Assembly (NCBI GenBank): GCA_017858255.1
Contig: JAFMBV010000001.1
Location: 1-64,000, forward strand
Source: Bacteriovoracaceae bacterium
GTDB taxonomy: Bacteria > Bdellovibrionota > Bacteriovoracia > Bacteriovoracales > Bacteriovoracaceae
Reading direction: 5' to 3'
Length of the DNA: 64,000 nt
The notes under the pieces: model-generated
What the model saw: only the letters and a program-made list of their open reading frames with translations
What the model was told of the DNA's origin: nothing
Databases searched by the model: none
Shown here: positions 43,981 through 61,495 of the stretch, piece after piece
Layout of the letters: the number at the start of each line of letters is the position of its first letter
How positions within the stretch are numbered: the stretch's first letter is position 1
Made by a program: the position numbers and the translations under genes

Positions 43981-45366
43981 TTACGACTTAAGGCCTATTT
44001 CATAAGTTCTTTCACAAAGTTGCCAGAATTCTTTCATTTGTGGAAAGGTTTCTAAGAATGAGGTGCCCCTTCTTTCATCATGGGCCTTAAAATAGAGATA
44101 GAAGTCACTTCTCTGGTGAGACAACCAATCTTCAGATTTCTCTTGCTTCATCCAGGCCAAAATCCGTTCCATTTTTTGAATTTCTGCTTTTTTTATTCCG
44201 ATTCTCTCATCCTGTCTTTCATTCATAAAAGCTATGAGGTCATTCATTTTTTCATAAAAATCTTCAGTTAAGATTTGTGCTGAAAAAATTTCAGGCCCCT
44301 GAAGATGAGGAATATCCAACAGGATTTGTCTTTTTTCATTATTAAATCTCTTTCTAAGAGAAAGCATGTATTCCAAAAACTGCTTGAAGCCTACAACACT
44401 TAGATTATTGAAGGTACACATAAAGGCCACTGAGCCAGTTGGTATTTCATTTAAATACCACTCAAGATTTTTTTCAAAATCGTTAAGCTTCAAACCCGTT
44501 CTTATATATTCCGCTTGCTCACCCCAAGTATCCAGGCTTGTGTGGAGTATATGTCTCTTAATTTTTCCATCGGCAACGAGAGGCTTTATTAAATCCATAA
44601 AGCGTTGCATCTGTTTTTCTGGAATACCTAAATTTGAATTTATAGAAAGATCAAGTTGGTCTTGCGGGTTTTCATTTAACCACTCTAATACCTTATAAGT
44701 ATTAGGACTCAAAAGTGGTTCCCCACCAGTAATCCTAAAGTACATTAGATCTTTTACAAGGTTTGGCCACCACTCCCAAAATGCATCGAGATAGGGGTTA
44801 TTATCTTCCTCTAAGGGATTATGGCCTTTAAACTTTAGCCATTTAATACTTTGGTGATCATGCTTTGATAGTTTTATTGCTCCATGCTTTTTAATCTCTT
44901 GCATCCATGAAGTGCTGATCGTTGGGGAGCAATACATACATTTAAAGTTACAGGTTGAACTGAAGCTAACTTCAACATAGCTTGGATTAATATTTTCATC
45001 CCACTTTAAATTTTTTACCTTTTCAAAGTAGGGAAGGGTCCAGTCGTCAACTCCACGATAATGACGGTCGGAATAATTGTTTCCGGGAAGGTCTTCAATA
45101 TCCCAACAAATTTTACACTCCGCAGGTCTTTCCCCATTTTTCATTTGTTTTCTTGCGATCTTTTTAAACTTTGTATTATGGAGAGCAGAAGGATCTTTTT
45201 TTAATTCACTCAAAGGTATTTTGTGGGGAAGAGGCAGGTAGCAAGAATGAGTATGACCAGTCATTAGATGAATTGTTACGTGCATCCACTTCGCCATACA
45301 AAAGGATGATGACACCTCATTAAGCTGCTCTCTAACTACATCTAATTTTCCAATATCTCCAAACAT
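43981..45366 (-). CDS. Radical SAM protein, twitch-type (461 aa)
   Basis: The CxxxCxxC cluster motif is CNFKCMYC near residue 140 (VEVSFSSTCNFKCMYC), followed by RITGGEPLLSPNTYKVLEWL and LDLSINSNLG, the core of radical SAM enzymes that use SAM and a 4Fe-4S cluster. A Cys-containing N-terminal region (AECKICWDIEDLPGNNYS) adds a potential second cluster site. It resembles twitch-domain proteins found in peptide or cofactor modification, but no substrate is evident; the neighbours are tRNAs and a PilZ protein. It looks solitary. Confidence 0.8.
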   Translation of the reverse strand: MFGDIGKLDVVREQLNEVSSSFCMAKWMHVTIHLMTGHTHSCYLPLPHKIPLSELKKDPSALHNTKFKKIARKQMKNGERPAECKICWDIEDLPGNNYSDRHYRGVDDWTLPYFEKVKNLKWDENINPSYVEVSFSSTCNFKCMYCSPTISTSWMQEIKKHGAIKLSKHDHQSIKWLKFKGHNPLEEDNNPYLDAFWEWWPNLVKDLMYFRITGGEPLLSPNTYKVLEWLNENPQDQLDLSINSNLGIPEKQMQRFMDLIKPLVADGKIKRHILHTSLDTWGEQAEYIRTGLKLNDFEKNLEWYLNEIPTGSVAFMCTFNNLSVVGFKQFLEYMLSLRKRFNNEKRQILLDIPHLQGPEIFSAQILTEDFYEKMNDLIAFMNERQDERIGIKKAEIQKMERILAWMKQEKSEDWLSHQRSDFYLYFKAHDERRGTSFLETFPQMKEFWQLCERTYEIGLKS

Positions 45367-45687: not shown

Positions 45688-48600
45688 TTACCTAGAAAGT
45701 GCACGAATTTGATTCTCAACCTGACTCCGATCCGGCGCGTTAGGGTAAAGTTTTAGATAAGTTCTAAACTCTTCTATGGCCAATCCACTTTGACCAACAC
45801 CTTGGTAAATAAATCCTAGCTGTTTTCTAATCTCAGGCATGTCTGGGGCCTGCTTCTTTGCTCTTAGATACAGCTCTCTAGCGATCTCATAATTCCTCTG
45901 ATTTAACTTTATGAAGCCCAGACTCATAAGAGACTCAACATTTCTTGGATTAATTGAAATGGATTTCTCTAGGTTCTTAATGGCATCACTAAACTTACCT
46001 AGTAGACGCTGTGTTTCTCCAAGAATGTAATAACCATTGTAAATCTTAGGATTATTTTCTTTTTCCTTTTCAGCAGCAAGAAGGGCATTCTTATAGTCCT
46101 TCATTTTCAAATAAACCTTAGCTATTAAATAATAGGCGCCTGGGTAAGTTGATAACCTCTTTGTCACGCCTAATAAAACCTCTAAAGACTTTTGGTAGCG
46201 GCCAAGGGAGGCATATGTTTTTCCAAGAAGCATTCTCGTCGTAACATCTCCCGGATTAATTTCTAGCAACAACTCAGCATTAGTAATGACATTATCCATA
46301 TTTTCTTCAATTTGAGCTGCCTTAATTAAGAAAGAGTAAAAGGCTGGATCTTCAGTATTCAAGTTTTGAATTTTTTCTTTCATTTCTTTAAATTGAGCAA
46401 GTTGTCCATTTCGGTAATAAAAGGTGGCAATATCACCCATAAGGCGTGGGTTGTCTTTATTGTCCGTATCGAGTGCAGTCTGAAGGTAACCAATTGCTGT
46501 ATCAGCTCCCTCTAACTCAAAAAGTATTTCTCCATATAGTGATTTATATTCGATATTCAGTGGATCAAGGGTAATGGCCTCAGCAAGCTTGGCCTTACTC
46601 AGATTATACTGTCTGCTTCGGGAATATATTTTGGCCATCAAATAATAATCCTCATCTCGAAGTGGATTCCTTGCAACAGATTGGCTTAAAAACTTAATCG
46701 CGAGAGGATACCTCTTTGCTCTTTCATAGTAGTGGCCAACGACTGACTCATATAAGGGATGCTGCCGCAGCTTAGAATTGGAGATGGCCCCCACCTCTAG
46801 TTGTGCTTCATCGATTTTATTCGCTTCGTACAAGGCCCTAACCAATGCAAAGCTAACGTGTGGATTTCTTGGATATTCTCTTCTTAGAAATGTTAATGTA
46901 TCTATGGCTGATTCAAAGTAGCCTCTTTGAATCTGTAATTCTGCTAAGTTTAAATCTGCAGGTAAAAAGCTTATCTCGAGATCCACAGCTTCAATTGCTA
47001 CTCGAAAGGCATCTTCCCACCGTCTTTCTTTACTAAGTTTTTTCGATTTTCTCATTAAATCGAGGGCCTTTGACTCGAGAATTAATTTTTCAGCGACTTT
47101 TCCACCACCAACTTCAAGACTGGCCAATTTAGAACGAAGTCGATTCGTATCATTAATCTTTAAGGCGAGTTTAAATAGTATTGCAGCCGTTTTCACATCT
47201 TTACCGTAAGCTGAAAGGATACCTAGGTTCTCCAAGTAATTAGCGTAATAAATGGGAGAACCTTCAAAGGATAATTTTTCGATTTGTTTTAAAATTGAGG
47301 AATACCTTTTAAAGTTTTCCTCTCTTAATAAATATTCAGAATAGTTCAAAAGTAGCGCTACAGAAGAGGGGTATTTCTGAAGACCTTCCTCTACAACTTT
47401 TTTTCCTAAATCATACCTTTCATCGAGCGTATGAAAATTACTCATAGCAAGATAGGCTTCAAAGGGTAAGTTTGGATACTCTCTTATTTTTGTTAAAATC
47501 TTTTTTGCTTTTGTTAAGTCGCCTACTTTTATGGCCAAGTCGAGGTAAAGAGAATGTAGCTTTAATGTTGGTTTCCCAACCCTTAGGAAGTTCTCAAGTA
47601 AATTAATCGCACTATTATGTTTGCCATTATTTGCATAGAAAAGAGTAGTCCCTATCGCAATATTAATATCTGTAAGCACCTTTGATCTTGTGATCTTAAT
47701 TAAATTAAAAATTATCGCCGCCCCCTTACTTTTATTCGAGACGTTATTAAAAAGCTCACCATAGGTGAGGATAAGAAAACCAAGGGCGGGGTTATTTTTA
47801 AATTTAAACTCAATACTCTGCTTAAAATAAGTGCTTGCCTCTACTTTACTTAAGTAGCTGCTTCTTCGATAAGCTTCTAGGCCCTTTCTGAAGTTTAGAT
47901 CGGCCTTCTCTTTATCTTCAACTTCGTATGTTATTGGAGCGCTAACCTTTAAATATTTCGGCTCGAATTCTTTTTCCTTTGGATCTTCATCTAAAAGGAA
48001 CCAAATGATAGCGATAAAGGCGATAGCTACTATTGGTGATATTCCCTTCTTTTTCTTCGGCTCTTCTACTTCCTCAAAATCATCATCAGCTTCAACTTCT
48101 TTATTTTTCTCTTTAAGGTCTCTTTTTTTCTCATCCTCAATTTCTCGCTCTAAGCTTTTTGCTTCTCTTTTCAAACTAACTAGTGCATTTCTATCAATAA
48201 ACTGAGTGCTCTCATCAAAACCTACTTCTTCCTCCCGTGCTTCCTCTGCTGCCTCTTCCAGCTCCTTTTCTTTTTCACGCTTATTAATTTCAAGTTTTTT
48301 CTTTTGCTCTTCTTGTTCTTTAAACCACTTCATTGCCTCAGGGTTTACTTGGGTCTTATCAACATCATTAACTTGCTTTCTTTTTAGAACCACCGTTTTT
48401 TCAAAAGAATCCTCTTCCTCTGGTGTCTCTTCTTCAATTTCTTCTTGGATTGATGGTTCTGGAACCTCATCTACAGTTTTTTCATTATACTTTTTCTCCA
48501 AAGCTTCATAATCAAACAATTGACTGGGGTCCTCTCTAGTAAACCTAAATTCTTGATGTTCACTCTTTTGTACACTTTCTTGTAGCTCTTCTACTTTTTT

Positions 48601-48915
48601 TATTTTTTCACTCTGACTCTCTTCTTTTTCTTTTTTCCTTTGAGCTTCTTTTTGTTTTGCCAAAGAGATTCTAGCGATTGTTGAATCATTATCCCCTTCC
48701 TGATCAGAGGCAACCACTTCGCCTTTAGCTAAAGAACTTAACAAATTATTTATCTCTGGAATCATAGAAATACTTTCCCAATCACCTGTTGGAAAAATTT
48801 GAGCAGTCTCGTCGCCACCAATATGTCCTTTGCTATATAATTCCCCAACTTGGGAAATTGCAAAAGGACCGACAATCCGACCATTAGAAAGTTTTATTCG
48901 ATATTTTTTGGCCAT
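45688..48915 (-). CDS. Large TPR membrane protein with N-terminal GYF_2-like domain (1075 aa)
   Basis: N-terminal 55 residues (YRIKLSNGRIVGPFAISQVGELYSKG, PTGDWESIS) match a GYF_2/DUF4339-type sensor domain. A long acidic, Glu/Lys-rich, disordered segment with KTVVLKRK-like and DKTQVN-like tracts follows to about residue 285, then one membrane helix (ISPIVAIAFIAIIWFLL) and about 700 residues of TPR repeats (for example LGKTYASLGRYQKSLEVLLG, LGETQRLLGKFSDAIKNLEK). The N-terminus is thus cytoplasmic and the TPRs probably periplasmic. The ATG overlaps the stop of the seven-gene Nuo-like block, so it is the last gene of that operon. A scaffold or assembly factor is likely. Confidence 0.8.
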   Translation of the reverse strand: MAKKYRIKLSNGRIVGPFAISQVGELYSKGHIGGDETAQIFPTGDWESISMIPEINNLLSSLAKGEVVASDQEGDNDSTIARISLAKQKEAQRKKEKEESQSEKIKKVEELQESVQKSEHQEFRFTREDPSQLFDYEALEKKYNEKTVDEVPEPSIQEEIEEETPEEEDSFEKTVVLKRKQVNDVDKTQVNPEAMKWFKEQEEQKKKLEINKREKEKELEEAAEEAREEEVGFDESTQFIDRNALVSLKREAKSLEREIEDEKKRDLKEKNKEVEADDDFEEVEEPKKKKGISPIVAIAFIAIIWFLLDEDPKEKEFEPKYLKVSAPITYEVEDKEKADLNFRKGLEAYRRSSYLSKVEASTYFKQSIEFKFKNNPALGFLILTYGELFNNVSNKSKGAAIIFNLIKITRSKVLTDINIAIGTTLFYANNGKHNSAINLLENFLRVGKPTLKLHSLYLDLAIKVGDLTKAKKILTKIREYPNLPFEAYLAMSNFHTLDERYDLGKKVVEEGLQKYPSSVALLLNYSEYLLREENFKRYSSILKQIEKLSFEGSPIYYANYLENLGILSAYGKDVKTAAILFKLALKINDTNRLRSKLASLEVGGGKVAEKLILESKALDLMRKSKKLSKERRWEDAFRVAIEAVDLEISFLPADLNLAELQIQRGYFESAIDTLTFLRREYPRNPHVSFALVRALYEANKIDEAQLEVGAISNSKLRQHPLYESVVGHYYERAKRYPLAIKFLSQSVARNPLRDEDYYLMAKIYSRSRQYNLSKAKLAEAITLDPLNIEYKSLYGEILFELEGADTAIGYLQTALDTDNKDNPRLMGDIATFYYRNGQLAQFKEMKEKIQNLNTEDPAFYSFLIKAAQIEENMDNVITNAELLLEINPGDVTTRMLLGKTYASLGRYQKSLEVLLGVTKRLSTYPGAYYLIAKVYLKMKDYKNALLAAEKEKENNPKIYNGYYILGETQRLLGKFSDAIKNLEKSISINPRNVESLMSLGFIKLNQRNYEIARELYLRAKKQAPDMPEIRKQLGFIYQGVGQSGLAIEEFRTYLKLYPNAPDRSQVENQIRALSR

Positions 48916-50057
48916 TATCTAATACTTATAAGTACACCGATAATTATAGCCGATAGTGTGAGGGGATTTGCTAAATGGTCAATTTTTCTCTCTTTTTGAA
49001 AGGAACTCTTAAATTCAATCCAAAAAATTAAATTTAGAAACCAAAATAGTCCAATAAAGTAAAATACACTTAAACCCATCCCCTCTAAAGAAGAGGTTTT
49101 TATTGCCTGATCTAAGAATTGACTGATATTTCCCCAAAACAATCCAGACATTCCGAGGAAACTAAATAAATATAGGTAGGGCCTTACCTTTTCTGAGCAT
49201 TTTAAAGAACGACTAATATAAGGTAGGTAAGAATATATATTGAAACACAAAATTACTTTCAATATATCTTCATTAAAAACATTATTTTGACTGAAGTAAA
49301 TTATTATCAAAAACAGTTCTCCAGACCTTTTAAATACCTTCCATAACTCAAGGCTTGATCGTGAAGAAAAAATAGTTAATATGGCCAAGCAAAATATTGC
49401 GACCTGACTTCCGAGAAGTACCTCATGTGGAATAATAAAATTTGTTTTTAAAATTACAGCTACGAATAAAATTGCTCTATTTGCCAGTGGATAAGAGTAA
49501 TCTTTTAAGGCGTCCTTATCTAGACCTAATGGAATTAACTCATTTGATAGCCAATACAAAAATACCAACATCCCCATACCAACAACTTGTGAATTTATTT
49601 GAGCCATTAAAAACGCTAAAGAAATTACTGTTATGGTAATAAATGTCTTCTTTATCGTATAAATCCAATTACCTGGACCCATATTTAAAAAAAGTTGGAG
49701 TATAAAGAAGAAAAACAATATGCCCCAATAGTTTTCAACATTAAGAAATTTAATAATTAGATGGATCGAGAGTATAAGTATCAAGGGAACAGAAAAGTGT
49801 GGCACTAAGGTACGATTGGCCAAGTCCGCAGGTCTAGTAAATTGAAATAATATAATTTCCACAGCAACAAGATAGAAGAAACTAGAATGTGGACCACTAA
49901 CCAAAACACCTCTACTTAAAAAGAGGTCTAACATTATGTCTATTAATAAAGCTACAATGACAATGACTGTAACTAATTGCCCTGCTCTTTGAGCTTTAGG
50001 CTTACCAGCCCCCAACAACATGCTAATAAAAGTTATCACTGACATTGCTATAGTCAT
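48915..50057 (-). CDS. Divergent NuoN/HyfB-like membrane protein, module gene 7 (380 aa)
   Basis: About 10-11 membrane segments. By eye it lines up with NuoN from this window: YPLANRAILFVAVILKTNFI with the TM segment containing the conserved Lys (NuoN SPLPVTAFFSIVPKVAGL), ELWKVFKRSGELFLIII with the VKRMLAYSSISHAGMML helix, and FSFLGMSGLFWGNISQF with FSLAGIPPFSGFVAKF. The first membrane helices of NuoN appear shortened. I use ATG 50057, which overlaps the previous stop (AAAATGA) and follows GAGGGA; a TTG at 50084 is possible. Probable antiporter-type subunit, possibly inactive. Confidence 0.6.
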   Translation of the reverse strand: MTIAMSVITFISMLLGAGKPKAQRAGQLVTVIVIVALLIDIMLDLFLSRGVLVSGPHSSFFYLVAVEIILFQFTRPADLANRTLVPHFSVPLILILSIHLIIKFLNVENYWGILFFFFILQLFLNMGPGNWIYTIKKTFITITVISLAFLMAQINSQVVGMGMLVFLYWLSNELIPLGLDKDALKDYSYPLANRAILFVAVILKTNFIIPHEVLLGSQVAIFCLAILTIFSSRSSLELWKVFKRSGELFLIIIYFSQNNVFNEDILKVILCFNIYSYLPYISRSLKCSEKVRPYLYLFSFLGMSGLFWGNISQFLDQAIKTSSLEGMGLSVFYFIGLFWFLNLIFWIEFKSSFQKERKIDHLANPLTLSAIIIGVLISIR

Positions 50058-51124
50058 TTTATTCCCTCTACTCTTCGTGCCCAAACAGCACGAGTAAAGT
50101 TATTTTCAAAGAGAATATACAGAAGGACAAAAACACTAAACAACTGCGGAGCTGAAGCCTTATATTTGATAAAAACCATTATTAAGACTGGTATTAAGAA
50201 AATTAACAAAACCCCCAACTCAACCTTAACACGAGAAATAACCTTTTTTAAATTACCCCAGTACATCCATGGAGAACATAGCGGTATCAGGATTATCATA
50301 AAAGAGTATTCGTTCGGTAAGTTTAGGGAAAGCAAAAGAATTGCTGGTAATATTAAATTTCTACCACTGTTTCTTTTAAGCAGGTACCAACCGATTACAA
50401 ATATTGCCGTTAATAAGTCTGAGTTAGTTGAAGAGAAGGGCAGGTGTGTCTTCAGTAATATTAAATAAAAATAAAGAGATAATGTCTCTAACCAGAATGC
50501 TCGTTGCCCAGTCTTAGTAAAAGACTCCATACCACGAGTAAAGCTTATCAAAACAACAAAATATAAAATTAAAAACAAAGATTTTAACGTTAAAACGACG
50601 TTTATATTTGAAGTGATCTGATAAATATTTTCGTAATATTCGGCTCCCCCCAAATACACTTCAGATATCTTAATTATTAAGTAAACGATAATTGCGCCAA
50701 AGTAATTAATCATGCTACGAAATGGATTTGAAATAGAGTCATGTAATCTAATTAATAGAACGAAGTAAAAGAGATGCAAAAAACTTATATAGTTACCATT
50801 AAATAACAATAATCCTATTTGGATAATTAAAATATTTACCGGCTTACCAACCAAGGGTCTCTTGTTAAAAAGAGTAAGTAGGTACCATACCCACAAGGAC
50901 ATCACGAAAGTATTAGTGTAAGACAACAACATGTGCTGTGTTGTTAAAACGCCAACATATACGGCCCAGCCCCATGTTATGAGAGAAATTGATACTGGTA
51001 AGTACCTTAAGCTCTTACCTTTAAAAAGATTGAAATTATAAAGGAATAAAGCGGTCGTCCCGATTAATGCAATCACTTCAAGACCCCGATTATGTAGGTA
51101 AACCATAACAAGAATATTAAACAA
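50054..51124 (-). CDS. Divergent NuoM/N-like membrane protein, module gene 6 (356 aa)
   Basis: About ten membrane segments, no signal peptide. Weaker likeness to antiporter-type Nuo subunits: LSLYFYLILLKTHLPF resembles the Lys-bearing helix of module gene 7 (VAVILKTNFI), followed at the same distance by a polar break and another helix (LILPAILLLSLNLPNE). The longest frame begins at TTG 51124, overlapping the previous gene by 52 bases; ATG 51106 is the alternative. Neither has a clear binding site, suggesting translation by coupling. Confidence 0.5.
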   Translation of the reverse strand: MFNILVMVYLHNRGLEVIALIGTTALFLYNFNLFKGKSLRYLPVSISLITWGWAVYVGVLTTQHMLLSYTNTFVMSLWVWYLLTLFNKRPLVGKPVNILIIQIGLLLFNGNYISFLHLFYFVLLIRLHDSISNPFRSMINYFGAIIVYLIIKISEVYLGGAEYYENIYQITSNINVVLTLKSLFLILYFVVLISFTRGMESFTKTGQRAFWLETLSLYFYLILLKTHLPFSSTNSDLLTAIFVIGWYLLKRNSGRNLILPAILLLSLNLPNEYSFMIILIPLCSPWMYWGNLKKVISRVKVELGVLLIFLIPVLIMVFIKYKASAPQLFSVFVLLYILFENNFTRAVWARRVEGIK

Positions 51125-52416
51125 ACAGTTATTGAGTAAGAAAAGTTTGGTAGCTTAAAATGCTTCGAATTATGATAAGTTTTTGGCATGCTTCTATTAT
51201 AGGCAATTTTTATATTATTACTTTTGGAGACTCTACGAGGAGCATCCCATTCTACAGAATGAGAAACCCTAATTACTCTATTAAATACAACCCTTTTTTT
51301 GTTCGCTATATAGACCATACCCACTGTTATAACTAAAAATAGTACTGAGAAAGGATTAATGGCCACATAAGTGGATGCTGTTGCATAAAGTAATAAAGAA
51401 GCGAGTAAGATCCATGATGAAAGTTCAAAATATTTCATCTCATTCTTTTGAGCCGGTTTATCTACCTGATAAATCTGCTTTAACAATAATATCAAGTACC
51501 CAAAACCAATAGATAAATAGGCAAGGGGAGATGTATATATCTTCTCATAGGCCCATGCGAGTGGAGTTCCATAAACACCTACCACCATTAATGAAGCCAA
51601 TAGTATGTAAAAAATTTGAGAATAGCTTAGTAGCAACTTTCCTTTTTCGACTTCTATATTTTTCAACTCTACGAAGAGAGTATTTAAAATCACAATCGAT
51701 GAGGTAAATATATTAAAGATGACCAAACTTGTTAGGTAGATATTTTCTGATTTTACGAAGGCCATAGTTAATATGGCCAACCACATAACTTTATACTCAA
51801 TATTCTTCCTTACTATTAAGATAAAAATTATCGTTAATGCCGATAGGCAGGATAAAACGAGTAAAGATTGCTCCCTTAATTGTGGTGCTATAAAAAAAGC
51901 TCCCATAACCATAAGGTAAGAGATATCGCTATTCTTTTTAGACAGAGTTAAATAATTCACCAAATTGCCTATAAAAAATAATGGTAAGAATATTTCAGCG
52001 AGCTCAACTCTAAAGTAACTTGTATAAAAGCCTAAAGTAGTCCCAAGAAGGCCCAGGAGGGTAGTTGGAAAGTCTTGTTTCCATAATCCTTGTAAAAATA
52101 TTAAAAGATAGCAATAAGGTAAAAACTTTGAATAATCACCTTCTAGCTGGCTAAACACTAAAGCAAACATGGGAAACATTAAAGTTACATGGTTTTCTAA
52201 ACTACCTTTAGTGAAGTAAAATAAAAAGAAAGTAGCTAAAAGGGAATATTGATATATAGGCTCTATTCCGCTACTTAGTCCCAACAAAACAACAAAAAAC
52301 ATCATCAAGAGACTTTTAAAGAGAGTGGCGGCCGTAATATTACGATAACTATAATTTAAAGTTTTTGTGTAATACAAAATCAAAAATAATAACCATGCTA
52401 CTAGTGTAAGTATCAT
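51073..52416 (-). CDS. Divergent NuoM/N-like membrane protein, module gene 5 (447 aa)
   Basis: About eleven membrane segments and a polar, basic C-terminal loop before a last helix. Near residues 260-290 SYSQIFYILLASLMVVGVYG is followed by GTPLAWAYEKIY, which resembles the G-x-P-x-x-x-x-F-x-x-K signature of Nuo/Mrp antiporter subunits (compare AGIPPFSGFVAKF in NuoN). The start codon overlaps the preceding stop (ATGA). Charged membrane residues needed for proton pumping are not evident. Function inferred only. Confidence 0.55.
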   Translation of the reverse strand: MILTLVAWLLFLILYYTKTLNYSYRNITAATLFKSLLMMFFVVLLGLSSGIEPIYQYSLLATFFLFYFTKGSLENHVTLMFPMFALVFSQLEGDYSKFLPYCYLLIFLQGLWKQDFPTTLLGLLGTTLGFYTSYFRVELAEIFLPLFFIGNLVNYLTLSKKNSDISYLMVMGAFFIAPQLREQSLLVLSCLSALTIIFILIVRKNIEYKVMWLAILTMAFVKSENIYLTSLVIFNIFTSSIVILNTLFVELKNIEVEKGKLLLSYSQIFYILLASLMVVGVYGTPLAWAYEKIYTSPLAYLSIGFGYLILLLKQIYQVDKPAQKNEMKYFELSSWILLASLLLYATASTYVAINPFSVLFLVITVGMVYIANKKRVVFNRVIRVSHSVEWDAPRRVSKSNNIKIAYNRSMPKTYHNSKHFKLPNFSYSITVCLIFLLWFTYIIGVLK

Positions 52417-52658
52417 CTTATTACCTTACTTTCTCTTTTAGATTTTCTTGGGTAAAAGACAATAGTAAGAGACATGGATATTATCATCAGTAGGGGCACA
52501 AAATTATCAAGATTATCCCTCTTTAAAACAATAAAGAAATAGAGCGCCATAAACATTAAGTAATTTATCCCTGTATAAATAATGGTGCTATTATTTTTTG
52601 ATAACAGGAGCTTGATCATTAGAGACATACAAAAGAACATTATTAGTGCACCAGTCAT
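52413..52658 (-). CDS. Small NuoK/HyfE C-terminal-like membrane protein, module gene 4 (81 aa)
   Basis: Three membrane helices. LLLSKNNSTIIYTGINYLMFMALYF has the shape of the 'L..rN.i.iL.giElm.Na' loop and helix of NuoK/HyfE, but the helix Glu that is conserved in proton transfer is replaced by Asn/Thr. Overlaps neighbours by four bases at each end. With module gene 3 it may form the two halves of a split HyfE. Confidence 0.55.
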   Translation of the reverse strand: MTGALIMFFCMSLMIKLLLSKNNSTIIYTGINYLMFMALYFFIVLKRDNLDNFVPLLMIISMSLTIVFYPRKSKRESKVIR

Positions 52659-53083
52659 AATCTGTTTCTCCCTCTTTGGAAGGCATAAATCGAAAGTGCT
52701 GTTATTATAATTAAGATTATTTCAAACATAATAAGAACTTCTGGTCCTATAACTAAACCTAAAAAGCCTGCCTCTATCTTCTCTCTATTTAAAAAATAAA
52801 TACCGAAACTAGGCAGAAAGGCTAAATATGTGACAACCTTTTCATGAATAGTTGAGTGTTCTTTTGTCTTTGTAAAAACTAATGACTTTTTGGCGACGAA
52901 TACGACCGGTAACACGATGCTCACGAAAAGCATCATTTCTATCGGGCCTTTTATAATCCAAACAACAAGTGATGTTATTAGTAAGTTTATCATTATGGTC
53001 GCCATCGGTCTCTTTTCACCACCAATGAGAGTGATCAAGCCTAATACCAAAATAAAAGTGAGGACCATATTTTCTTTAATCAT
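52655..53083 (-). CDS. HyfE N-terminal-like membrane protein, module gene 3 (142 aa)
   Basis: Five hydrophobic segments. The first three (LTFILVLGLITLIGG, IMINLLITSLVVWIIKG, MMLFVSIVLPVVFVAKK) match HyfE in order and spacing, including the third helix ending in a K/P-containing turn. Overlaps module genes 2 and 4. Likeness is by pattern; a different small membrane protein cannot be excluded. Confidence 0.5.
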   Translation of the reverse strand: MIKENMVLTFILVLGLITLIGGEKRPMATIMINLLITSLVVWIIKGPIEMMLFVSIVLPVVFVAKKSLVFTKTKEHSTIHEKVVTYLAFLPSFGIYFLNREKIEAGFLGLVIGPEVLIMFEIILIIITALSIYAFQRGRNRL

Positions 53084-53924
53084 TTAGTCTTATTACTCGT
53101 TTTGTTTTTATTAAACTATATTTGAATACCCAAACTATAATAATACAAAAAATAAACTTGGCTATCATACTTATACTCTGAAGCAATACCGTTTCTAGAC
53201 CAGGGGAAAAGTTCTGCTTTTCCAAAATTGATGGAAGTCCATATCCTCCTAGAAATCCAAAAATAAACATGATTATATAAGTATTAAAAAACAAGTGGTT
53301 CACGAGGGTAAAGTTTGTCTTTGGATTTTCGATCTCAGTGTACAAAAGATTTAAAATCAAAATTAATCCCAATGGATTGTTAATTAAGAAGTAATTTCTT
53401 AGTCCATACTCATTAAAGCTTTTTTGATATTGTACCATTTGCTCAACGGAGAAAGATGGAGAATAGATTACAAAAGTTAGTAAAATTCCGAGTAGTAATG
53501 GCACCTTATAGAAAATTTTCTTATAAGTAGGATCATACAGACTTCTTAAAATTTCACTAATTATTAGTATGCCAAAAAAGAATAACCAAGAGTTCTCGTT
53601 GGAGATAATGCCTAGATAAACCTCAGTTCCTGCGACATCGAAACGATCTGATAGTTGTACAAAAAATAATGGTAAGATCGCAGAAAGGACTGTTCCCATG
53701 TATAGAGCTATACTGAAAAACTTCCCCCTCTTTTCCTGAATATAGAATCCATTGTTTTCATTAAAAATTCTTAACAGCAAAACCTTAAGTATTGTTAAAT
53801 TGGCTATTTTTTTACGGTTGAAGATCGTAATAAATTCTTCTCTAATCCAAAGAGAAAAGCACAGTAAGAAGAACAGCAACACTAGAAAATGAATTGCCTT
53901 TATTGACTCTAAAAATACAAGCAA
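53076..53924 (-). CDS. Degenerate NuoH/HyfC homologue, module gene 2 (282 aa)
   Basis: The clearest member of the block. It aligns end to end with this window's own NuoH: the IFNRKKIANLTILKVLLLR loop (NuoH TYAERKISADIQL...GLLQ), SIALYMGTVLSAILPLFF (NLAPLLALIGVFATLAVLPF), LINNPLGLILILNLLYTEIENPK (LHNPFTFIAFFVFFIGMLAETN), FGFLGGYGLP (AAFLGGYKVP), ISMIAKFIFCIIIVWVFKY (FLTKTLFLYYVVIWVRWTF). The NPKTNFTLV stretch is nearer to the D-N-P-x-T motif of hydrogenase-4 HyfC. Lost: the RQGPNRVGP quinone loop and ETNRAPFDLPEAE. Start TTG 53924 with AAGG 7 bases upstream. Confidence 0.65.
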   Translation of the reverse strand: MLVFLESIKAIHFLVLLFFLLCFSLWIREEFITIFNRKKIANLTILKVLLLRIFNENNGFYIQEKRGKFFSIALYMGTVLSAILPLFFVQLSDRFDVAGTEVYLGIISNENSWLFFFGILIISEILRSLYDPTYKKIFYKVPLLLGILLTFVIYSPSFSVEQMVQYQKSFNEYGLRNYFLINNPLGLILILNLLYTEIENPKTNFTLVNHLFFNTYIIMFIFGFLGGYGLPSILEKQNFSPGLETVLLQSISMIAKFIFCIIIVWVFKYSLIKTKRVIRLND

Positions 53925-53933
53925 ACCTTAACC

Positions 53934-54206
53934 TTATGTTTTTCTTTGTATAAAATTAACAAAAGCAGTCACGATTAAAAGACTCATAATTATTTTAGGA
54001 CTTTCGCTGAATAAAGAGTAATTAATGTTTCTAAATTTTATAAAAATCAACCATGTAATTAGCGGCAACAAGAAAATAATAAAGCTAAAGTTTTCGATTT
54101 GATTACTAGAAAATGCCTTATGTGAGTTTGGCTTTCTTGAGAAGTAAACTAGGGTTGTTAACAGTAAGAGTAAAACAACCCCTGTAATTATGGCGCTAAT
54201 ATACAT
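53934..54206 (-). CDS. Small membrane protein directly after nuoN, module gene 1 (90 aa)
   Basis: Three membrane helices: VVLLLLLTTLVYFS, FSFIIFLLPLITWLIFI and IIMSLLIVTAFVNFI, with a polar loop (SRKPNSHKAFSSNQIEN). The ATG immediately follows the nuoN stop (TAAATG), so it is translated with it. I recognise no family; the layout is vaguely like NuoA or the start of HyfB, without its Glu/Asp. Confidence 0.5.
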   Translation of the reverse strand: MYISAIITGVVLLLLLTTLVYFSRKPNSHKAFSSNQIENFSFIIFLLPLITWLIFIKFRNINYSLFSESPKIIMSLLIVTAFVNFIQRKT

Positions 54207-55673
54207 TTATTGGAGGAAAACCTTTGCGCCATCCGCCAATACAATGAGCTTTTCCCAGAATAAACCAAGCACAACCACCGGAATGGTCAAGGCCACAACT
54301 GCCCCCTGGTTGAATATATTAAAGCCTGAAATAGCCTCTTCACTTTCTGGATCTTTTAGCATCATTAACCGTACTATTTTTAAATAATAGTAAAGGGATA
54401 CAACTGAATTGATACCTGCGATAACGGCCAATACATAATATTTTTTGGCCAATAGAGCGGTGAAGATATGAAACTTCGCTACAAATCCACTAAACGGTGG
54501 AATACCCGCTAGACTGAACATCACAATACATAAAGCGATCGCCATGAGGGGATATCTAAATGCAAGACCGGTAAAACGCTCAAAGTGATCATTTCCATAT
54601 TTGTCAGAAACAAACGATACGACATAGAATGCCGCCAAGGTCATAAAGAGATAGGTAACTGAATAAAAAATTACGCTTCTAGTTCCCAACTCACTTATAA
54701 CCAAAACACCCATTAACATCATGCCGGCATGAGAGATCGAAGAATATGCTAACATTCTTTTTACTGACCTCTGTCCAATTGCACTGACATTACCAACCGT
54801 CATTGTTAGGGCAGCAACTATCGATAAAACACCTACCCAACCAATATTTAAAGCGCCAGGGTTTGCAAAGAATGTCTGGGACACTCGTATTAAGGCAGCT
54901 AAACCAGCTACCTTTGGTACGATGCTAAAAAATGCTGTAACTGGTAACGGTGAACCCTCATAAACATCTGGTGCCCACATATGAAATGGCACACAAGCGA
55001 TCTTGTATCCAATCCCTGCAAAGAAGAATAAGAATGAAGGCAAGAGAATCGCAATTTGTGTCGTATCTACTGTACTTAGAACCACTGCCATTTCAGTAAA
55101 ATTTATACTTCCTAGTACTCCAAAAATATGGCTCATACCAAAGAGCATAATTCCAGAACTCATTCCGCCGTAAAGAGAGTACTTCAACCCTGCCTCAGAG
55201 CTTCTTTCATCGCCCTTCTTTAAACTTGCGAGTACATAAGAGAGAATTGAGAGAGTTTCAATACCGATAAATAACACCAGCATATTGTTCGCCGACGAAA
55301 GTAGCATCCCGCCAACAAGCACGCCTGTTGCCATGATTATAAATTCAGGCTTTAGGTTTCCTTCAATGTCATTACTTGTACTAGCTAGATATACGGCTCC
55401 AATAGTTCCTAAGACCATGACCATTTTCATAAGAGAAGAAAATGAGTCAATAATTAGACTATTGGTAAAGATTGCAACAGGTTCCTTACCTAATGAAGCA
55501 AAAGAAAATACCAGTACCGATACTAAACCGATTCCGGCAGCTAGAAATAGAAAGCCTCTCCCTTTTTCCTCTTCCTTATAAGTTGCCTCGATAAGGATGA
55601 GTCCAAACATAGTAAGACAAGCCAATAGCTCAGGAATGAAATGACTTAAACTTGCTAAATAATTCTGTCCCAT
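54207..55673 (-). CDS. nuoN: NADH-quinone oxidoreductase subunit N
   Basis: Antiporter-like proton channel subunit of complex I. Fourteen membrane segments; NNMLVLFIGIETLSILSYVL (with the helix Glu), VPFHMWAPDVYEGSPLPVTAFFSIVPKVAGL (Lys), VKRMLAYSSISHAGMML and SLAGIPPFSGFVAKF are complete. 488 residues. It follows nuoM by 13 bases. Confidence 0.96.
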   Translation of the reverse strand: MGQNYLASLSHFIPELLACLTMFGLILIEATYKEEEKGRGFLFLAAGIGLVSVLVFSFASLGKEPVAIFTNSLIIDSFSSLMKMVMVLGTIGAVYLASTSNDIEGNLKPEFIIMATGVLVGGMLLSSANNMLVLFIGIETLSILSYVLASLKKGDERSSEAGLKYSLYGGMSSGIMLFGMSHIFGVLGSINFTEMAVVLSTVDTTQIAILLPSFLFFFAGIGYKIACVPFHMWAPDVYEGSPLPVTAFFSIVPKVAGLAALIRVSQTFFANPGALNIGWVGVLSIVAALTMTVGNVSAIGQRSVKRMLAYSSISHAGMMLMGVLVISELGTRSVIFYSVTYLFMTLAAFYVVSFVSDKYGNDHFERFTGLAFRYPLMAIALCIVMFSLAGIPPFSGFVAKFHIFTALLAKKYYVLAVIAGINSVVSLYYYLKIVRLMMLKDPESEEAISGFNIFNQGAVVALTIPVVVLGLFWEKLIVLADGAKVFLQ

Positions 55674-55686
55674 GAGTTATTCCTAT

Positions 55687-57219
55687 TTAGTATGTAGCGA
55701 GCATACTTACGAGTTTACCGACCGATGCTCTCATCACATTTAGTACGGGTGAGGGATAAATCCCAAATACAACTACGGCAACACAAAGTGGCACCATAAA
55801 AGCGATTTCTCGAGCATTCATATCGGTGTATGATTTACATTCCTCTATAACGTCACCAAAGAACATTCTCTTAAACATCCACAGCAGGTAAGCCGCTCCA
55901 AGCAATAAACCGATCAAGGCCAAGACTGTTATCGTCGTGTACTTCTCGTATATACCTAAGAAAATCAAAGCTTCTGATATGAAGCCAGATAGACCAGGTA
56001 GACCCATAGAGGCAAACATTGCGATGATAAAGATAATCGTAAACTTTGGAAGCTGTGTATAAAGACCTCCGAAGCCTTTGGATCCGTCTGGTCTAACAAT
56101 CCAGCGGTGATGTGATCTCTCGTAAAGTATTCCGATCAAAAGGAACATCATGGCCGTTGAAGTACCGTGATTAAACATCTGAAGAACAGCACCGTTCATA
56201 CCCGTAACAGTCATTGCAGCAAGACCTAGCATCACAAATCCCATGTGAGATACAGAAGAATAGGCCACAAGTTTTTTAACGTCGGTCTGAGCCATTGCAC
56301 AAAATGCGCCATAGATCACATTTATTAAACCTAACCAAGCTATTGCATCCGCAAAATGTACTGATGCACCTGGAAAGATTGGGAAAGCTATTCTTAAAAA
56401 GCCATAAGTACCCATTTTAAGCAGAACACCGGCAAGTATGACTGATACTGCTGTTGGAGCCTGTACGTGGGCATGCGGTAACCATGTATGGAAAGGGAAT
56501 ACTGGCACCTTAATAGCGAAACCAATGAATAGGAAAATAAAGAATAATTTTGAAAAGCTTAACGTTGTTCCGAATAGTTCTATAGTTAAGTCTGAGAACC
56601 TTCCTCCTTGTAGAGCAAGAATACTGAAACTATCAACACCCTTACCTGAAGCGTAATATAGCGCAACCATTCCAACGAGCATTAAGATTGATCCGAAAAA
56701 CGTATAAAGAAAGAATTTAACTGCAGCATACTCTCTGTTTTCTCCTCCCCAAATTCCAATCAGGAAAAACATCGGTATCAACATCACTTCCCAGTAAACG
56801 TAGAAAAGGAAGAAGTCCAAAGCAAAGAAAACACCAAACACGGTAGTCTGAAGAAATAAGAAAAGAGCAAAGTATCCTTTTATCTGTTTTGTAACAGTCC
56901 AGGAGGACAGAATACAAAGCATAAAGAGTAGCCCTGTTAGAATAATCATTGGTAATGATATTCCATCAACTCCTAAGTTATAAAAGATATTAAAGCTACT
57001 AATCCATGGGATCTTCACATTAAAGGCTTCTTGCATACCTGGAACACTGGTGTCGAACTTTGAATAAAGAACCAACGTCAACACAAAGGTAATCGCAGTA
57101 TTTACCAATGCCCACCAGCGAATTAAGTTTTCTTTTGATTTAGGTATTAATAAAACACCTATGACACCAATAAATGGTGTCCACAAAATCCAGTTTAAAA
57201 GATTTGATGATGCCTGCAC
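55687..57219 (-). CDS. nuoM: NADH-quinone oxidoreductase subunit M
   Basis: Second antiporter-like subunit, 510 residues. FYVYWEVMLIPMFFLIGIWGGENR with its Glu, KVPVFPFHTWLPHAHVQAPTAVSVILAGVLLKMGTYG, DVKKLVAYSSVSHMGFVMLG and GLPGLSGFISEALIF are all present. An intact proton channel in a full membrane arm. Confidence 0.96.
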   Translation of the reverse strand: MQASSNLLNWILWTPFIGVIGVLLIPKSKENLIRWWALVNTAITFVLTLVLYSKFDTSVPGMQEAFNVKIPWISSFNIFYNLGVDGISLPMIILTGLLFMLCILSSWTVTKQIKGYFALFLFLQTTVFGVFFALDFFLFYVYWEVMLIPMFFLIGIWGGENREYAAVKFFLYTFFGSILMLVGMVALYYASGKGVDSFSILALQGGRFSDLTIELFGTTLSFSKLFFIFLFIGFAIKVPVFPFHTWLPHAHVQAPTAVSVILAGVLLKMGTYGFLRIAFPIFPGASVHFADAIAWLGLINVIYGAFCAMAQTDVKKLVAYSSVSHMGFVMLGLAAMTVTGMNGAVLQMFNHGTSTAMMFLLIGILYERSHHRWIVRPDGSKGFGGLYTQLPKFTIIFIIAMFASMGLPGLSGFISEALIFLGIYEKYTTITVLALIGLLLGAAYLLWMFKRMFFGDVIEECKSYTDMNAREIAFMVPLCVAVVVFGIYPSPVLNVMRASVGKLVSMLATY

Positions 57220-57252: not shown

Positions 57253-59421
57253 TTAAATATTTAAAGTCCAAATGTAACCAGTCAGTACCAAAATGATCAC
57301 AATAAAATAAAATTGGATCTTTCCGGACTGAATAGTTCTTAAAATTACATTAAAAAAGCGAACACTAGCGCCCGTTCCATCAACAGCAACGGTGTCGACA
57401 ATAATATTGTCAAACCAGTTGGCCATAGTGAACAAGACTCTGTTTACCTTTTCCCAGCCATCGATAGCATAGCGGTCGTAAATTCCCATATCGATAAAGG
57501 CCAACAAGTTATTTAAAGGTAAAAGTCCTTTTTGAATAAAGCCTTTTATATAAACGTCATCAAAGTAGTACTTATTTTGAAGCGCCCTATACCATCTTGA
57601 GAATAGTGATACCCAAAAACCAGGATTCCAAGATCTCCAGAAATACATCATCGTTGCAATGAACACGCCAGAGAAAGCAATGACAATTGAGACTAAAGCT
57701 CCGATATGATGAATGTGATGAACATGGTGGGCTTTTTCGGCACTTAAGCCGTGGTTGCTGTCATATTTTGATTTAGTGAAAGTTTCAGTGCTTGAATTAT
57801 TAACAAAACTAAACGGCTGAGACTGACGGTTGTTAAAACTCGCTAGGTTTGGTTTCACAATCAATGTTTGAAACCACTCAAATTTTTCACCGGCAACTTT
57901 AATAAAGCCCTGCCCAGTTAATGAACCAGAGTAAAATAAACCTAGTGTAAATAATGAAAGAATAAGTAACGGAAGGTTTCTATTCCAACTTAAAGTTTCT
58001 TTTTTCGTATGGTCATAAAGCTCTTTATCTCTTGGCTCCCCAAAAAATGTTAAGAACATCATTCTGAACATATAAAATGCTGTCAGAAGTGCTCCGCCGA
58101 AACCGAGTAGGGCAGGACCCCAGTAAACTTTGTTATCAAGGGCCATTAATAGGGCATCACCAAGAATTCTATCCTTTGAAACAAAACCACTAAAGAATGG
58201 AATGCCTGCAATTGCCAATGTACAGAAAAGCATGGCCAAGAATGTGTAAGGCATTTTATTTTTTAATCCACCCATCCGTGGCATTTCCTGCACGTGAGCA
58301 TGAGTGTGGTGATCATGAAGTGAATGAATTACCGAGCCTGCAGATAAGAATAAACATGCTTTAAAAACTGCGTGAGTTATTAGATGCATAAAGGCTGCGT
58401 TATAAGAGCCAACCCCAACTCCCAATACCATATAACCAAGCTGAGAAATTGTAGAATAGGCCAATACGGCTTTTATATCTGTTTGGACTAGTGCAATTGT
58501 TGCTGCACCAAAAGCTGTAATCCCACCAATATAGGCAATAAGCGTAGTTAAATTTCCTGCCTCCATAAGTGGATAGCAACGCAAACTTAAGTAAACACCT
58601 GCAGCAACCATTGTCGCCGCATGAATTAGTGCTGAACAAGGAGTCGGTCCCCACATCGCATCTGGCAACCAAACCTGGAGAGGAACTTGGGCTGACTTAC
58701 CAATTGTTCCCATAAATACACTAAATCCTGCAAACGTAGCGAGCGGTATACCTAGGGCATACAAGCCGTTAAATTTTCCCATACCTATGGCCTGATAGAT
58801 ATCTACAAAAGATACGCTACCAACTACCGACCAAATGGCCAAAATACCGAGTAAGAAAAATACATCTCCCACTCGTGTTGTCATAAAAGCTTTCATTGAT
58901 GCATTACCTGCACCCTCTTTTTCATAGTAAAAGCCAATTAGAGAATAAGAACAAAAGCCCATTAGTTCCCAAAAGATAAATACTGAAATTAAGTTTTCCG
59001 AGAGAACTAGAGCAAGCATCGCACTTGTAAATAATGAGAGATAAACGAAGAACCTTCCATATCTTTTATCATCACGCATGTAATAGGTTGAAAATATATG
59101 AATTAAAGACGCAACACCCGTAACCATAAAGAGCATAGTTGCAGTCATGTTATCTATATATATTCCCATATCCATTTTAAATGGAAACGATCCATAAGAA
59201 AGATCAAACCAGGTAAATGTTTTATGAATATAGTAGTCGGCGCTAAAGACGTTTAAAAAATCAAAGAACACTCTGGCTGCGTAGAAGAAAGAACCTATTA
59301 CGGAACCACAGCTTATAATTACTGCTAATGTTGTAAAACGCTTTACAATGAAAGCATTAATCACAAAAGCAAAGAAAGGTAATAAAACTATTGGGGCAAT
59401 CGTACTAATCGTATATTCCAT
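57253..59421 (-). CDS. nuoL: NADH-quinone oxidoreductase subunit L
   Basis: Distal antiporter subunit with the lateral helix, 722 residues, longer than usual. FIFWELMGFCSYSLIGFYYEKE, VPLQVWLPDAMWGPTPCSALIHAATMV, DIKAVLAYSTISQLGYMVLG and AGIPFFSGFVSKDRIL are intact. An insert of about 60 residues near 530-590 is polar and ends in a His-rich HHVHHIHHI stretch, which may bind metal. nuoK precedes it by 17 bases. Confidence 0.95.
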   Translation of the reverse strand: MEYTISTIAPIVLLPFFAFVINAFIVKRFTTLAVIISCGSVIGSFFYAARVFFDFLNVFSADYYIHKTFTWFDLSYGSFPFKMDMGIYIDNMTATMLFMVTGVASLIHIFSTYYMRDDKRYGRFFVYLSLFTSAMLALVLSENLISVFIFWELMGFCSYSLIGFYYEKEGAGNASMKAFMTTRVGDVFFLLGILAIWSVVGSVSFVDIYQAIGMGKFNGLYALGIPLATFAGFSVFMGTIGKSAQVPLQVWLPDAMWGPTPCSALIHAATMVAAGVYLSLRCYPLMEAGNLTTLIAYIGGITAFGAATIALVQTDIKAVLAYSTISQLGYMVLGVGVGSYNAAFMHLITHAVFKACLFLSAGSVIHSLHDHHTHAHVQEMPRMGGLKNKMPYTFLAMLFCTLAIAGIPFFSGFVSKDRILGDALLMALDNKVYWGPALLGFGGALLTAFYMFRMMFLTFFGEPRDKELYDHTKKETLSWNRNLPLLILSLFTLGLFYSGSLTGQGFIKVAGEKFEWFQTLIVKPNLASFNNRQSQPFSFVNNSSTETFTKSKYDSNHGLSAEKAHHVHHIHHIGALVSIVIAFSGVFIATMMYFWRSWNPGFWVSLFSRWYRALQNKYYFDDVYIKGFIQKGLLPLNNLLAFIDMGIYDRYAIDGWEKVNRVLFTMANWFDNIIVDTVAVDGTGASVRFFNVILRTIQSGKIQFYFIVIILVLTGYIWTLNI

Positions 59422-59438: not shown

Positions 59439-59744
59439 CTAGCTTTGAAGTTGAGCAGCATCATCAATATGGATTGTTTCTTTGATTTGGAAAAATCTAA
59501 TAACAATCGCAAGGCCAACGGCTGCTTCTGCGGCAGCAATTACAATAATAAACAAACTCATTAAATGCCCTTCAAGGTTATTATTTATAAACCTTGTGTA
59601 GGCGGCAAAATTTAAAGCTGCGCTATTTAGAATAAGCTCGATTCCCAACATCATCGCAATGATATTTTTTCGAGCTATCATAACAGCTATACCTGCTATA
59701 AAGAGCGTGAATGAAATAAAAAGATAAGATGATAGTGAAATCAT
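59439..59744 (-). CDS. nuoK: NADH-quinone oxidoreductase subunit K
   Basis: Three helices, 101 residues. ARKNIIAMMLGIELILNSAALNF carries the conserved Glu in the second helix, and AEAAVGLAIVIRFF is the third helix with its Glu. Normal in all key positions, unlike module gene 4 further down. Confidence 0.96.
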   Translation of the reverse strand: MISLSSYLFISFTLFIAGIAVMIARKNIIAMMLGIELILNSAALNFAAYTRFINNNLEGHLMSLFIIVIAAAEAAVGLAIVIRFFQIKETIHIDDAAQLQS

Positions 59745-59753
59745 ATTATTTCC

Positions 59754-60281
59754 TTAACCTTTTCGAGGTCTTGCAATAACAGCTGCGCCAACAAGTGCAC
59801 CCAGTAATAAAATTGATGATATTTCAAATGCAAGTACGTGATCCGTTACCAGTAAAGTTCCAATTTTTTCAACTGTTGATGAAAAAGCTGGTAATTCACC
59901 TTTTGTGTAAGATTTCATAAAGTTTGCCATGAGCTTTAATACGGTAAATGAAATTACCAAAACACTAAAACCTGCAATTACATAAGTTTTGGTGCTACCC
60001 ATAGCTGGTATTTTTTCAATACCAAACTTATTGGAATTATCAGAGCTACCACCCGTTAACATAACGGCAAAGAGCATAAGAATAACAACGCCACCAGCGT
60101 ATATTACTAACTGTGCTGCCGCGAGAAAATCAGCTCCAATAACTGCATACAGTCCAGCGATTCCAAAAAGGGAAGCCAGCAACAATACACAGGCATGCAT
60201 TAGATTTTTTGAGAAAACAACACCAGCGGCACCAATGATACAAAGGGCTGCTGATAAGAAAAATAGTATATTTTCAAACAT
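59754..60281 (-). CDS. nuoJ: NADH-quinone oxidoreductase subunit J
   Basis: Five-helix subunit of 175 residues. SKNLMHACVLLLASLFGIAGLYAVIGADFLAAAQLVIYAGGVVILMLFAVML is the family core, with the flexible pi-helix region. Nine bases separate it from nuoK. Confidence 0.95.
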   Translation of the reverse strand: MFENILFFLSAALCIIGAAGVVFSKNLMHACVLLLASLFGIAGLYAVIGADFLAAAQLVIYAGGVVILMLFAVMLTGGSSDNSNKFGIEKIPAMGSTKTYVIAGFSVLVISFTVLKLMANFMKSYTKGELPAFSSTVEKIGTLLVTDHVLAFEISSILLLGALVGAAVIARPRKG

Positions 60282-60295
60282 AACTAACTCCTACC

Positions 60296-61495
60296 TTAAT
60301 GGCCGCCGCCATGGGCTCCGCCGCCGAGATGACTTAAGACTTCCCAGATTGATTGACCATCAAAAGCAAAAACCCACAAGGTTATACCTACAAGATTAAA
60401 TAGTGCTATTGGTGTTAAGTACTTCCAACAAATTGTCATTACCTGATCTACTCTAATCCTTGGGAAGGTCCATCTAACCCAAATTACGACATAATAGAGA
60501 AATAATGTTTTTGTTAAGAAAGATCCCATTTGTAGTAATTGACCAATATTTTTACCGATGATGGCAGGTAGTCCGAGCTTTTCTACAAACACAACACCAT
60601 TTCCAAGATCAAAAGGCACTTTATAGCCACCCAAAAATGCTGCTGCCGCGACTCCGCAAAGAACAAATACTTCTATATATTCTGCGAGAGCAAAAAGACC
60701 AAATCGCATTCCAGTGTATTCAGTGTGATAACCAGAAACCAGTTCAGACTCAGCCTCAGGCAAATCGAAAGGTGCTCTATTCGTTTCGGCCAACATACCT
60801 ATGAAGAAAACAAAGAACGCTATAAAGGTGAAAGGGTTATGAAGAATATACCACTGATGGGGAAAGCCACCCTGAGTTTCTACGAAACTACCAAAACTCA
60901 TTCCACCGGAAATTAAGACGATAGATAGAATTGTTATTGTTACAGGAACTTCATAACTAATAATCTGAGAGGCACCTCTCATCCCGCCAAGCATTGACCA
61001 TTTTGAGTTAGCTGAATAGCCCCCCAAAAATACAGCAACACCAACAAGGGAAGACACACCGATTAAGTAAAAAACACCAATATTGAGATTTGTTAGCGTA
61101 AAGCCAGATGAAAAAGGCAGTACGGCCAATGTTGCAAATACTCCGATGAGTGCAAGTAGAGGAGCTAAGTTAAAAAGTGTTCTGTCTGCTTGAGCAGGAA
61201 AGATATCTTCTTTCATAAGCATTTTCACGCCGTCAGCGAGAAACTGAAGAAGACCATAAGGACCAACTCTGTTTGGTCCTTGTCTAAGCTGAATATCTGC
61301 TGAAATTTTTCTTTCAGCATAGGTACCTAAACCACCGACCAAGGCCATCACGTTTACAACGAGAAAAGAAGCTACCGCAAAAACCAAAAATGTCACTAAA
61401 CCAGAGGCATCAAATCCCAAAACTTCAGAGATGAAACCAATAGCTTTTCGATGAGCTTCGAATTGATTTAGATAATCATTAATAGAGGGACTCAT
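60296..61495 (-). CDS. nuoH: NADH-quinone oxidoreductase subunit H
   Basis: Connects the quinone chamber to the antiporter subunits. LRQGPNRVGPYGLLQFLADGVK, AETNRAPFDLPEAESELVSGYHTEY and WVRWTFPRIRVDQ are intact. 399 residues; the C-terminus carries an extra GGGAHGGGH tail. It overlaps nuoA by four bases: nuoB, C, D, E, F, G and I, normally between A and H, are missing. Confidence 0.96.
   Translation of the reverse strand: MSPSINDYLNQFEAHRKAIGFISEVLGFDASGLVTFLVFAVASFLVVNVMALVGGLGTYAERKISADIQLRQGPNRVGPYGLLQFLADGVKMLMKEDIFPAQADRTLFNLAPLLALIGVFATLAVLPFSSGFTLTNLNIGVFYLIGVSSLVGVAVFLGGYSANSKWSMLGGMRGASQIISYEVPVTITILSIVLISGGMSFGSFVETQGGFPHQWYILHNPFTFIAFFVFFIGMLAETNRAPFDLPEAESELVSGYHTEYTGMRFGLFALAEYIEVFVLCGVAAAAFLGGYKVPFDLGNGVVFVEKLGLPAIIGKNIGQLLQMGSFLTKTLFLYYVVIWVRWTFPRIRVDQVMTICWKYLTPIALFNLVGITLWVFAFDGQSIWEVLSHLGGGAHGGGH

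Follow-up and report, generated by a model that had tools for sequence, protein, structure and literature searches.

The locus described here encodes a NuoH-like protein lacking the motifs of the quinone site. In the window, i.e., the whole stretch of 64,000 nucleotides analysed, an ORF on the minus strand (53076–53924, TTG start codon) encodes a protein of 282 aa, here termed H', which contains neither the quinone loop RQGPNRVGP nor the TM5-6 loop ETNRAPFDLPEAE; a canonical NuoH featuring both is encoded 7 kb upstream (60296–61495, minus strand; PF00146, 8e-110). The absence of both motifs had been pointed out in an earlier note on this DNA, which considered this one gene. The gene stands as described there, but the unit to which it belongs is a seven-gene membrane arm together with a peripheral cluster located elsewhere.

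Results

A seven-gene tail behind canonical nuoN

All genes of the run lie on the minus strand. The canonical part, extending from 61935 to 54207, comprises nuoA (61492–61935; ORF list and homology), nuoH, nuoJ (59754–60281), nuoK (59439–59744) and nuoL (57253–59421), the latter three assigned via orthologues matching E. coli NuoJ, NuoK and NuoL, followed by nuoM (55687–57219; ORF list and locus comparison) and nuoN (54207–55673; ORF list, Pfam and NCBIfam). Behind it are seven ORFs, which by synteny represent the putative counterparts of NuoA (A', 53934–54206, 90 aa; compared with the intact A' of genomes G020 and G034), NuoH (H', a diverged NuoH according to profile searches and alignment), NuoJ (J', 52655–53083, 142 aa, overlapping H' by 8 nt), NuoK (K', 52413–52658, 81 aa), NuoL (L', 51073–52416, 447 aa vs. 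675 aa in G020), NuoM (M', 50054–51124, at most 356 aa with an uncertain start) and NuoN (N', 48915–50084, at most 389 aa, also with an uncertain start). The ATG of A' directly follows the nuoN stop codon, most tail genes downstream of A' overlap by 1 to 52 nt, and a promoter scan inside the run yielded 27 promoters vs. 28.1 expected.

The last gene of the run (45688–48915) encodes a TPR protein (Pfam) of 1075 aa with a weak GYF-like N-terminus and one TM. Its gene occurs in 114 of the 129 genomes of the family, including some that are without the module, and G024 has kept the gene although both complexes are missing at the locus. In G100 it is followed by serS, and in the window a radical SAM protein is encoded beyond it (43981–45366). 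A link of the TPR protein to motility was rejected, its neighbours being housekeeping genes (mfd, PPIases, pdxA, uvrA, rlmB).

Standard annotation misses the module, with neither Pfam nor NCBIfam naming any of the seven tail proteins as complex I subunit. No Pfam match exceeded the cut-off for any of them, and H' gave no Pfam match at all, including NADHdh (PF00146). In NCBIfam, the only match above cut-off in the tail was on the 81-aa K' and concerned a short LPXTG-anchor domain (17.4 bits vs. a cut-off of 15.9; E 0.005). We regard this match as due to chance; H' yielded no NuoH match but weak unrelated ones (E ≥ 0.007, far below cut-off). NuoX profiles and iterative HMMs likewise gave no recognisable match for A', J', K', L', M' and N' of the window genus, and the first five of these are assigned, as putative counterparts, by position alone. 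For N', structure prediction provided an answer independent of sequence: with an AlphaFold2 model based on four sequences (pLDDT 58, pTM 0.59), all 50 matches listed by VIA were of the complex I/Mrp antiporter type (best Z 14.8 over 314 residues), and Foldseek gave a probability of 1.00 to MrpD as well as to E. coli NuoN and NuoL (E 1e-3 to 0.1). The predicted fold points to an antiporter-type complex I subunit.

Homology of H' to NuoH

The NuoH homology put forward in the earlier note proved to be above chance. A profile of six H' sequences from the genus matched the NuoH profile with P = 94 (score 60, 215 columns), 20 of 20 column shuffles of the same comparison scored below 18, and against six other membrane subunits the genus profile reached P ≤ 1. 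With canonical NuoH as the starting point, an iterative HMM search (database size fixed at 10000 for E-values) recovered the window H' at E = 2.4e-9; it matched H' in 21 of 35 genomes, including 6/6 of the window genus at the second round, and no tail ORF from another position. When the genus sequences were combined with five intermediates, 34/34 matches in the PDB were of NuoH/ND1 type, with Thermus Nqo8 as the best (2.7e-26), while the genus-only profile matched none of the PDB chains. An AlphaFold2 model of H', by which the helix order named in the earlier note and the eight-helix fold of NuoH were examined, was poor (mean pLDDT 46); with this model, the first six Foldseek rows were NuoH/ND1 at non-significant E-values (0.7–3.5), and VIA placed rhodopsins ahead of NuoH (Z up to 7.6). 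As judged from sequence, H' is a real, very diverged NuoH.

Intact relatives and repeated loss

Among named organisms, the closest to the window genome are Bacteriovoracaceae MAGs. A comparison of 25 loci downstream of nuoN revealed that most genomes of this family have these seven ORFs in the interval from nuoN to the TPR gene. The tail is full-length in G020 and G026, with BLAST matches to NuoH, NuoM and NuoN, and in G034 A' to K' are visible before the contig ends. GPNRVGP is present in the H' of all three genomes and RLPFDLAEGESE in that of G020 and G034, and intermediates between the intact and the window state occur in G028, G099, G109, G110, G096, G033, G106 and G016. Based on these intact relatives and intermediates, the tail corresponds to A'H'J'K'L'M'N', i.e., a second membrane arm.

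An ORF is found at all seven tail positions in 32 of 35 genomes collected from many genera, the exceptions being G034 (cut by the contig end), G096 (without K') and G010 (truncated); the tail ORFs were picked as open frames, and the telling point is an ORF of fitting size at nearly every position. In the 68 genomes in which a single contig carries both nuoH and the TPR gene (split-contig genomes and those lacking a gene being left out), the locus offers room for the module in 44 (11.0–13.5 kb), for part of it in one and for none in 23 (6.2–6.7 kb); a partial module is found in G010. In G028, G099 and G015, the module persists at a locus devoid of a canonical nuo membrane arm, and a search for a canonical NuoH elsewhere in these three genomes found none. 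The module, therefore, does not serve canonical complex I.

In a NuoN phylogeny covering 37 genomes of the family, the state of the H' quinone motif needs three changes, at least two of which are forced by well-supported branches. Because the motif is ancestral, it was lost more than once, and loss within the module was independent and occurred at least twice. With regard to the origin of the tail, phylogeny does not settle duplication (AU p 0.08), and no DNA repeats of at least 25 bases remain. A simple recent tandem duplication of nuoAHJKLMN is less likely, since intact H' is about 50% identical to the NuoH of a third nuo operon vs. about 37% to canonical NuoH. This third operon (L068–L072), which includes E, F and G and has C and D mostly as separate genes, was observed in several genera (G030, G010, G029, G009 and G136), and locus L106 of G025 carries a compact operon A-B-CD-H-I-J-K-L-M-N without E, F and G. 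Searches beyond the family covered 59 genomes for the window H' and 290 genomes of the phylum for lipoprotein U (see below), the class-level set being the same 129 family genomes.

The peripheral arm and lipoprotein U

In the window genome (G000), NuoD searches revealed two NuoD-like genes. One is part of canonical B-C-D-I on contig C179; the other encodes a fused CD' and lies on contig C55 within a cluster of a 538-aa lipoprotein, B', CD', an F' remnant, G' and I'. The best model for CD' is of NuoD type. G020 and G105 possess an intact cluster B'-CD'-E'-F'-G'-I', which argues for a complete NADH-type complex I encoded over two loci as the ancestral state of this second complex, here termed Nuo2. 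NuoF (PF01512) was found in 10 of 25 genomes searched; it was not found in the window genome, whose canonical complex is likewise without NuoF. Most diverged relatives are devoid of E', F' and G', and two genomes of the window genus, G004 and G006, have lost F'/G'. CD' and I' are kept in G030 and G136 though the module has no room at the locus there. A 133-aa CBS-domain protein (L101:9272-9673) is encoded immediately after canonical nuoI.

Upstream of B'-CD'-I', the gene of lipoprotein U (L082:12111-13727, G000:C55) encodes a protein that measures about 500 aa family-wide and features a signal and a lipobox cysteine, both read by eye, as well as further invariant cysteines. It matched neither Pfam nor NCBIfam, and comparison with the PDB gave three weak matches (E ≥ 0.13). 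Lipoprotein U is present in 109 of 129 family genomes and in 83 of the 290 phylum genomes drawn, one of which lies outside the family; it stands alone in G012, and an in-frame upstream reading MCLPISPPG is common to three genomes (L087, L094, L085). With gene order alone as the basis, lipoprotein U is possibly linked to the module. Over 29 genomes, the divergence of H' correlated neither with that of CD' (Spearman 0.20, p = 0.30) nor with that of lipoprotein U, and the missing co-divergence of H' and CD' lends no support to a tight physical pair.

Residues lost and kept

In the alignment with NuoH (E. coli numbering), the quinone loop and the TM5-6 loop of the window H' are deleted, Glu157 is replaced by Lys, Glu216/218/220/228 are deleted and Glu241 is replaced by Asn. 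In CD' of G000, the quinone His and Tyr of NuoD are exchanged for Asn and Ile, respectively; both are kept in 3 of 34 genomes with CD' (G020, G105 and G034). The changes in H' and its NuoD-like partner support the earlier description of the module as quinone-free, and the residue losses would leave neither a quinone chamber nor an E-channel in H'. Glu157 of E. coli NuoH is called invariant in one published account (PMC8357420).

The picture differs for the Fe-S ligands, and the suggestion of the earlier note that the module no longer takes electrons is at most a possibility. In the window genome, B' keeps 4/4 Fe-S cysteines, I' 8/8 ligands and G' those cysteines seen in the alignment. The F' remnant has lost its FMN/NADH half (without GRGGAGFPTG) and retains the cysteines of cluster N3. 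Among 31 B' examined, 18 feature all four N2 cysteines and 13 are without one or more.

In the genus, L', M' and N' share 4, 3 and 8 invariant columns, respectively, in residue alignments of about 20% identity that are likely misaligned in places. Invariant charged residues in a membrane setting amount to none in L' and M' and one in N' (R203), compared to 15 in canonical M and 20 in canonical N. Of the charged residues of H', three that lie in a hydrophobic setting are invariant (H12, E124, K256), as are two of J'. A conserved charged axis across NuoL/M/N is described in one source (PMC9271201); the alignments of L', M' and N' do not show it.

Selection on the tail genes

Between G000 and G002, dN was 0.105 for H' vs. 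0.041 for canonical H, 0.74 vs. 0.036 for L' and 0.75 vs. 0.033 for M'. For every tail gene with measurable dS, dN was below dS, and the measurable ratios were all below 0.6 in both species pairs; these ratios are rough, as dS was saturated for H', J' and K' (G000 vs. G002) and otherwise high. Sister species share 36% identity in L' and 32% in M' vs. 91–99% in canonical subunits, and H' and A' are the slow-changing genes of the tail. Simulated neutral drift at 0.9 substitutions per site introduced a mean of 15–24 stops into H', L', M' or N', and none of 200 runs remained stop-free. Broken frames as expected for pseudogenes were looked for at the tail positions and are not the case. The tail genes have kept their reading frames, their coupling and their order, and purifying selection acts on them.

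Discussion

We consider it probable that H' derives from NuoH and belongs to a second complex I, Nuo2, which has been hollowed out and yet retained, does not pump, and has its genes split over two loci. The peripheral arm would be encoded as (lipoprotein U)-B'-CD'-(E'F'G')-I' at one locus and the membrane arm A'H'J'K'L'M'N' behind nuoN of canonical complex I. The ancestor would have been an ordinary 13-subunit NADH:quinone oxidoreductase, a state that a few genera still show. The sites for NADH/FMN and for quinone as well as the proton-channel residues were lost along the lineage of the window and independently along others. The products could still assemble into a complex I-shaped body consisting of a NuoH-like base, an antiporter-fold N' and a cytoplasmic part of CD', B' and I', and this body would have a non-pumping job as scaffold, sensor or new electron relay, maybe in concert with the conserved lipoprotein. 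Most likely, Nuo2 would have a role in structure or sensing, or act as a changed electron relay. The erosion of the catalytic parts, set against the persistence of gene order and predicted fold, suggests that a respiratory enzyme has turned into something else in these predatory-type bacteria. More tentatively, and with somewhat more doubt than confidence, we propose that complex I became a non-enzymatic envelope body, whose redox ends and proton path were lost repeatedly and in parallel and which is nevertheless kept in assembled form throughout the family, maybe in conjunction with the cysteine-rich lipoprotein; the Fe-S wire would then be dispensable and lost lineage by lineage.

An alternative option could be that Nuo2 is a relic under weak selection, which slowly decays and has no new job. 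The low identities of L' and M' between sister species (36% and 32% vs. 91–99% for the canonical subunits) as well as the stepwise losses, with G010 retaining part of the module and 23 of 68 genomes nothing of it, are consistent with such a decay. The presence of all seven ORFs in 32 of 35 genomes from many genera, the many stops which neutral drift would put into them and the slow change of H' and A' speak against it, and we regard it as unlikely. A redox enzyme with a new donor and acceptor, in which the Fe-S wire was kept while the NADH and quinone ends were swapped, would explain why the Fe-S ligands examined in B', I', G' and the F' remnant are all present in the window genome; however, this appears quite improbable given the 13 of 31 B' in which the set of four N2 cysteines is incomplete and the absence of F'/G' from G004 and G006 within the same genus.

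Being part of the same gene run as canonical nuoAHJKLMN, the tail might also be an accessory to canonical complex I, e.g., as an extended membrane arm, but three genomes keep it without canonical nuo (G028, G099, G015) and it has a peripheral cluster of its own, which makes this option very unlikely. The suggestion of the earlier note that the module could still be a proton path, i.e., that a quinone-free base conducts protons, may draw on the invariant charged residues H12, E124 and K256 of H' and the two of J'. It is contradicted by Lys in place of Glu157, Asn in place of Glu241, the deletion of the E-channel loop with its four glutamates and the lack of any invariant membrane charge in L' and M' (N' has one, R203), leaving it a very slim chance. 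Finally, the same note had called NPKTNFTLV closer to the HyfC motif, and nothing beyond this favours a HyfC/HycD-type hydrogenase subunit. NPKTNFTLV aligns where the NuoH loop is deleted, and only its P201 and F205 are invariant across the genus; a two-sequence HyfC/HycD profile yielded P = 0.06, the partner is NuoD-type by best model and the intermediates are NuoH. We consider this kinship negligible and rejected it.

The reading of Nuo2 as a hollowed-out, retained complex I is of interest beyond this locus. Few enzymes are known to be as conserved as complex I. Here, the genomes of one family grade from an intact second complex I into a state in which redox ends and proton path are gone, with genes open throughout. 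This series represents a natural mutagenesis on which parts of complex I serve shape and which catalysis, and it raises the question of what use a complex I without catalysis might have. No published description of such a module was found in the open literature (most subscription journals being outside its scope).

Among known systems, respiratory complex I (NDH-1, Nuo, the 13/14-subunit NADH type) shares with Nuo2 the order A-H-J-K-L-M-N, the fused CD, B and I, and in G020 and G105 the proteins are full-length and carry the motifs. The window Nuo2 differs from it in the loss of NADH/FMN, quinone and proton-channel residues and in having its arms at two loci. Most diverged relatives, being without E', F' and G', resemble the 11-subunit type of complex I without NuoE/F/G, but Nuo2 additionally lacks the quinone and E-channel residues. 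In Nitrospira, a modified Nuo with duplicated NuoM, described in one source as a second form beside the canonical one, is considered functional (PMC7784846); there, a single pump subunit was doubled, whereas in Nuo2 a whole arm was hollowed out. The Ehr complexes are portrayed in one report as complex I relatives without such ligands, related to group 4 hydrogenases and suspected to be ion movers (PMC6349859). Catalytic ligands are lacking in both Ehr and Nuo2, but CD' is of NuoD type here.
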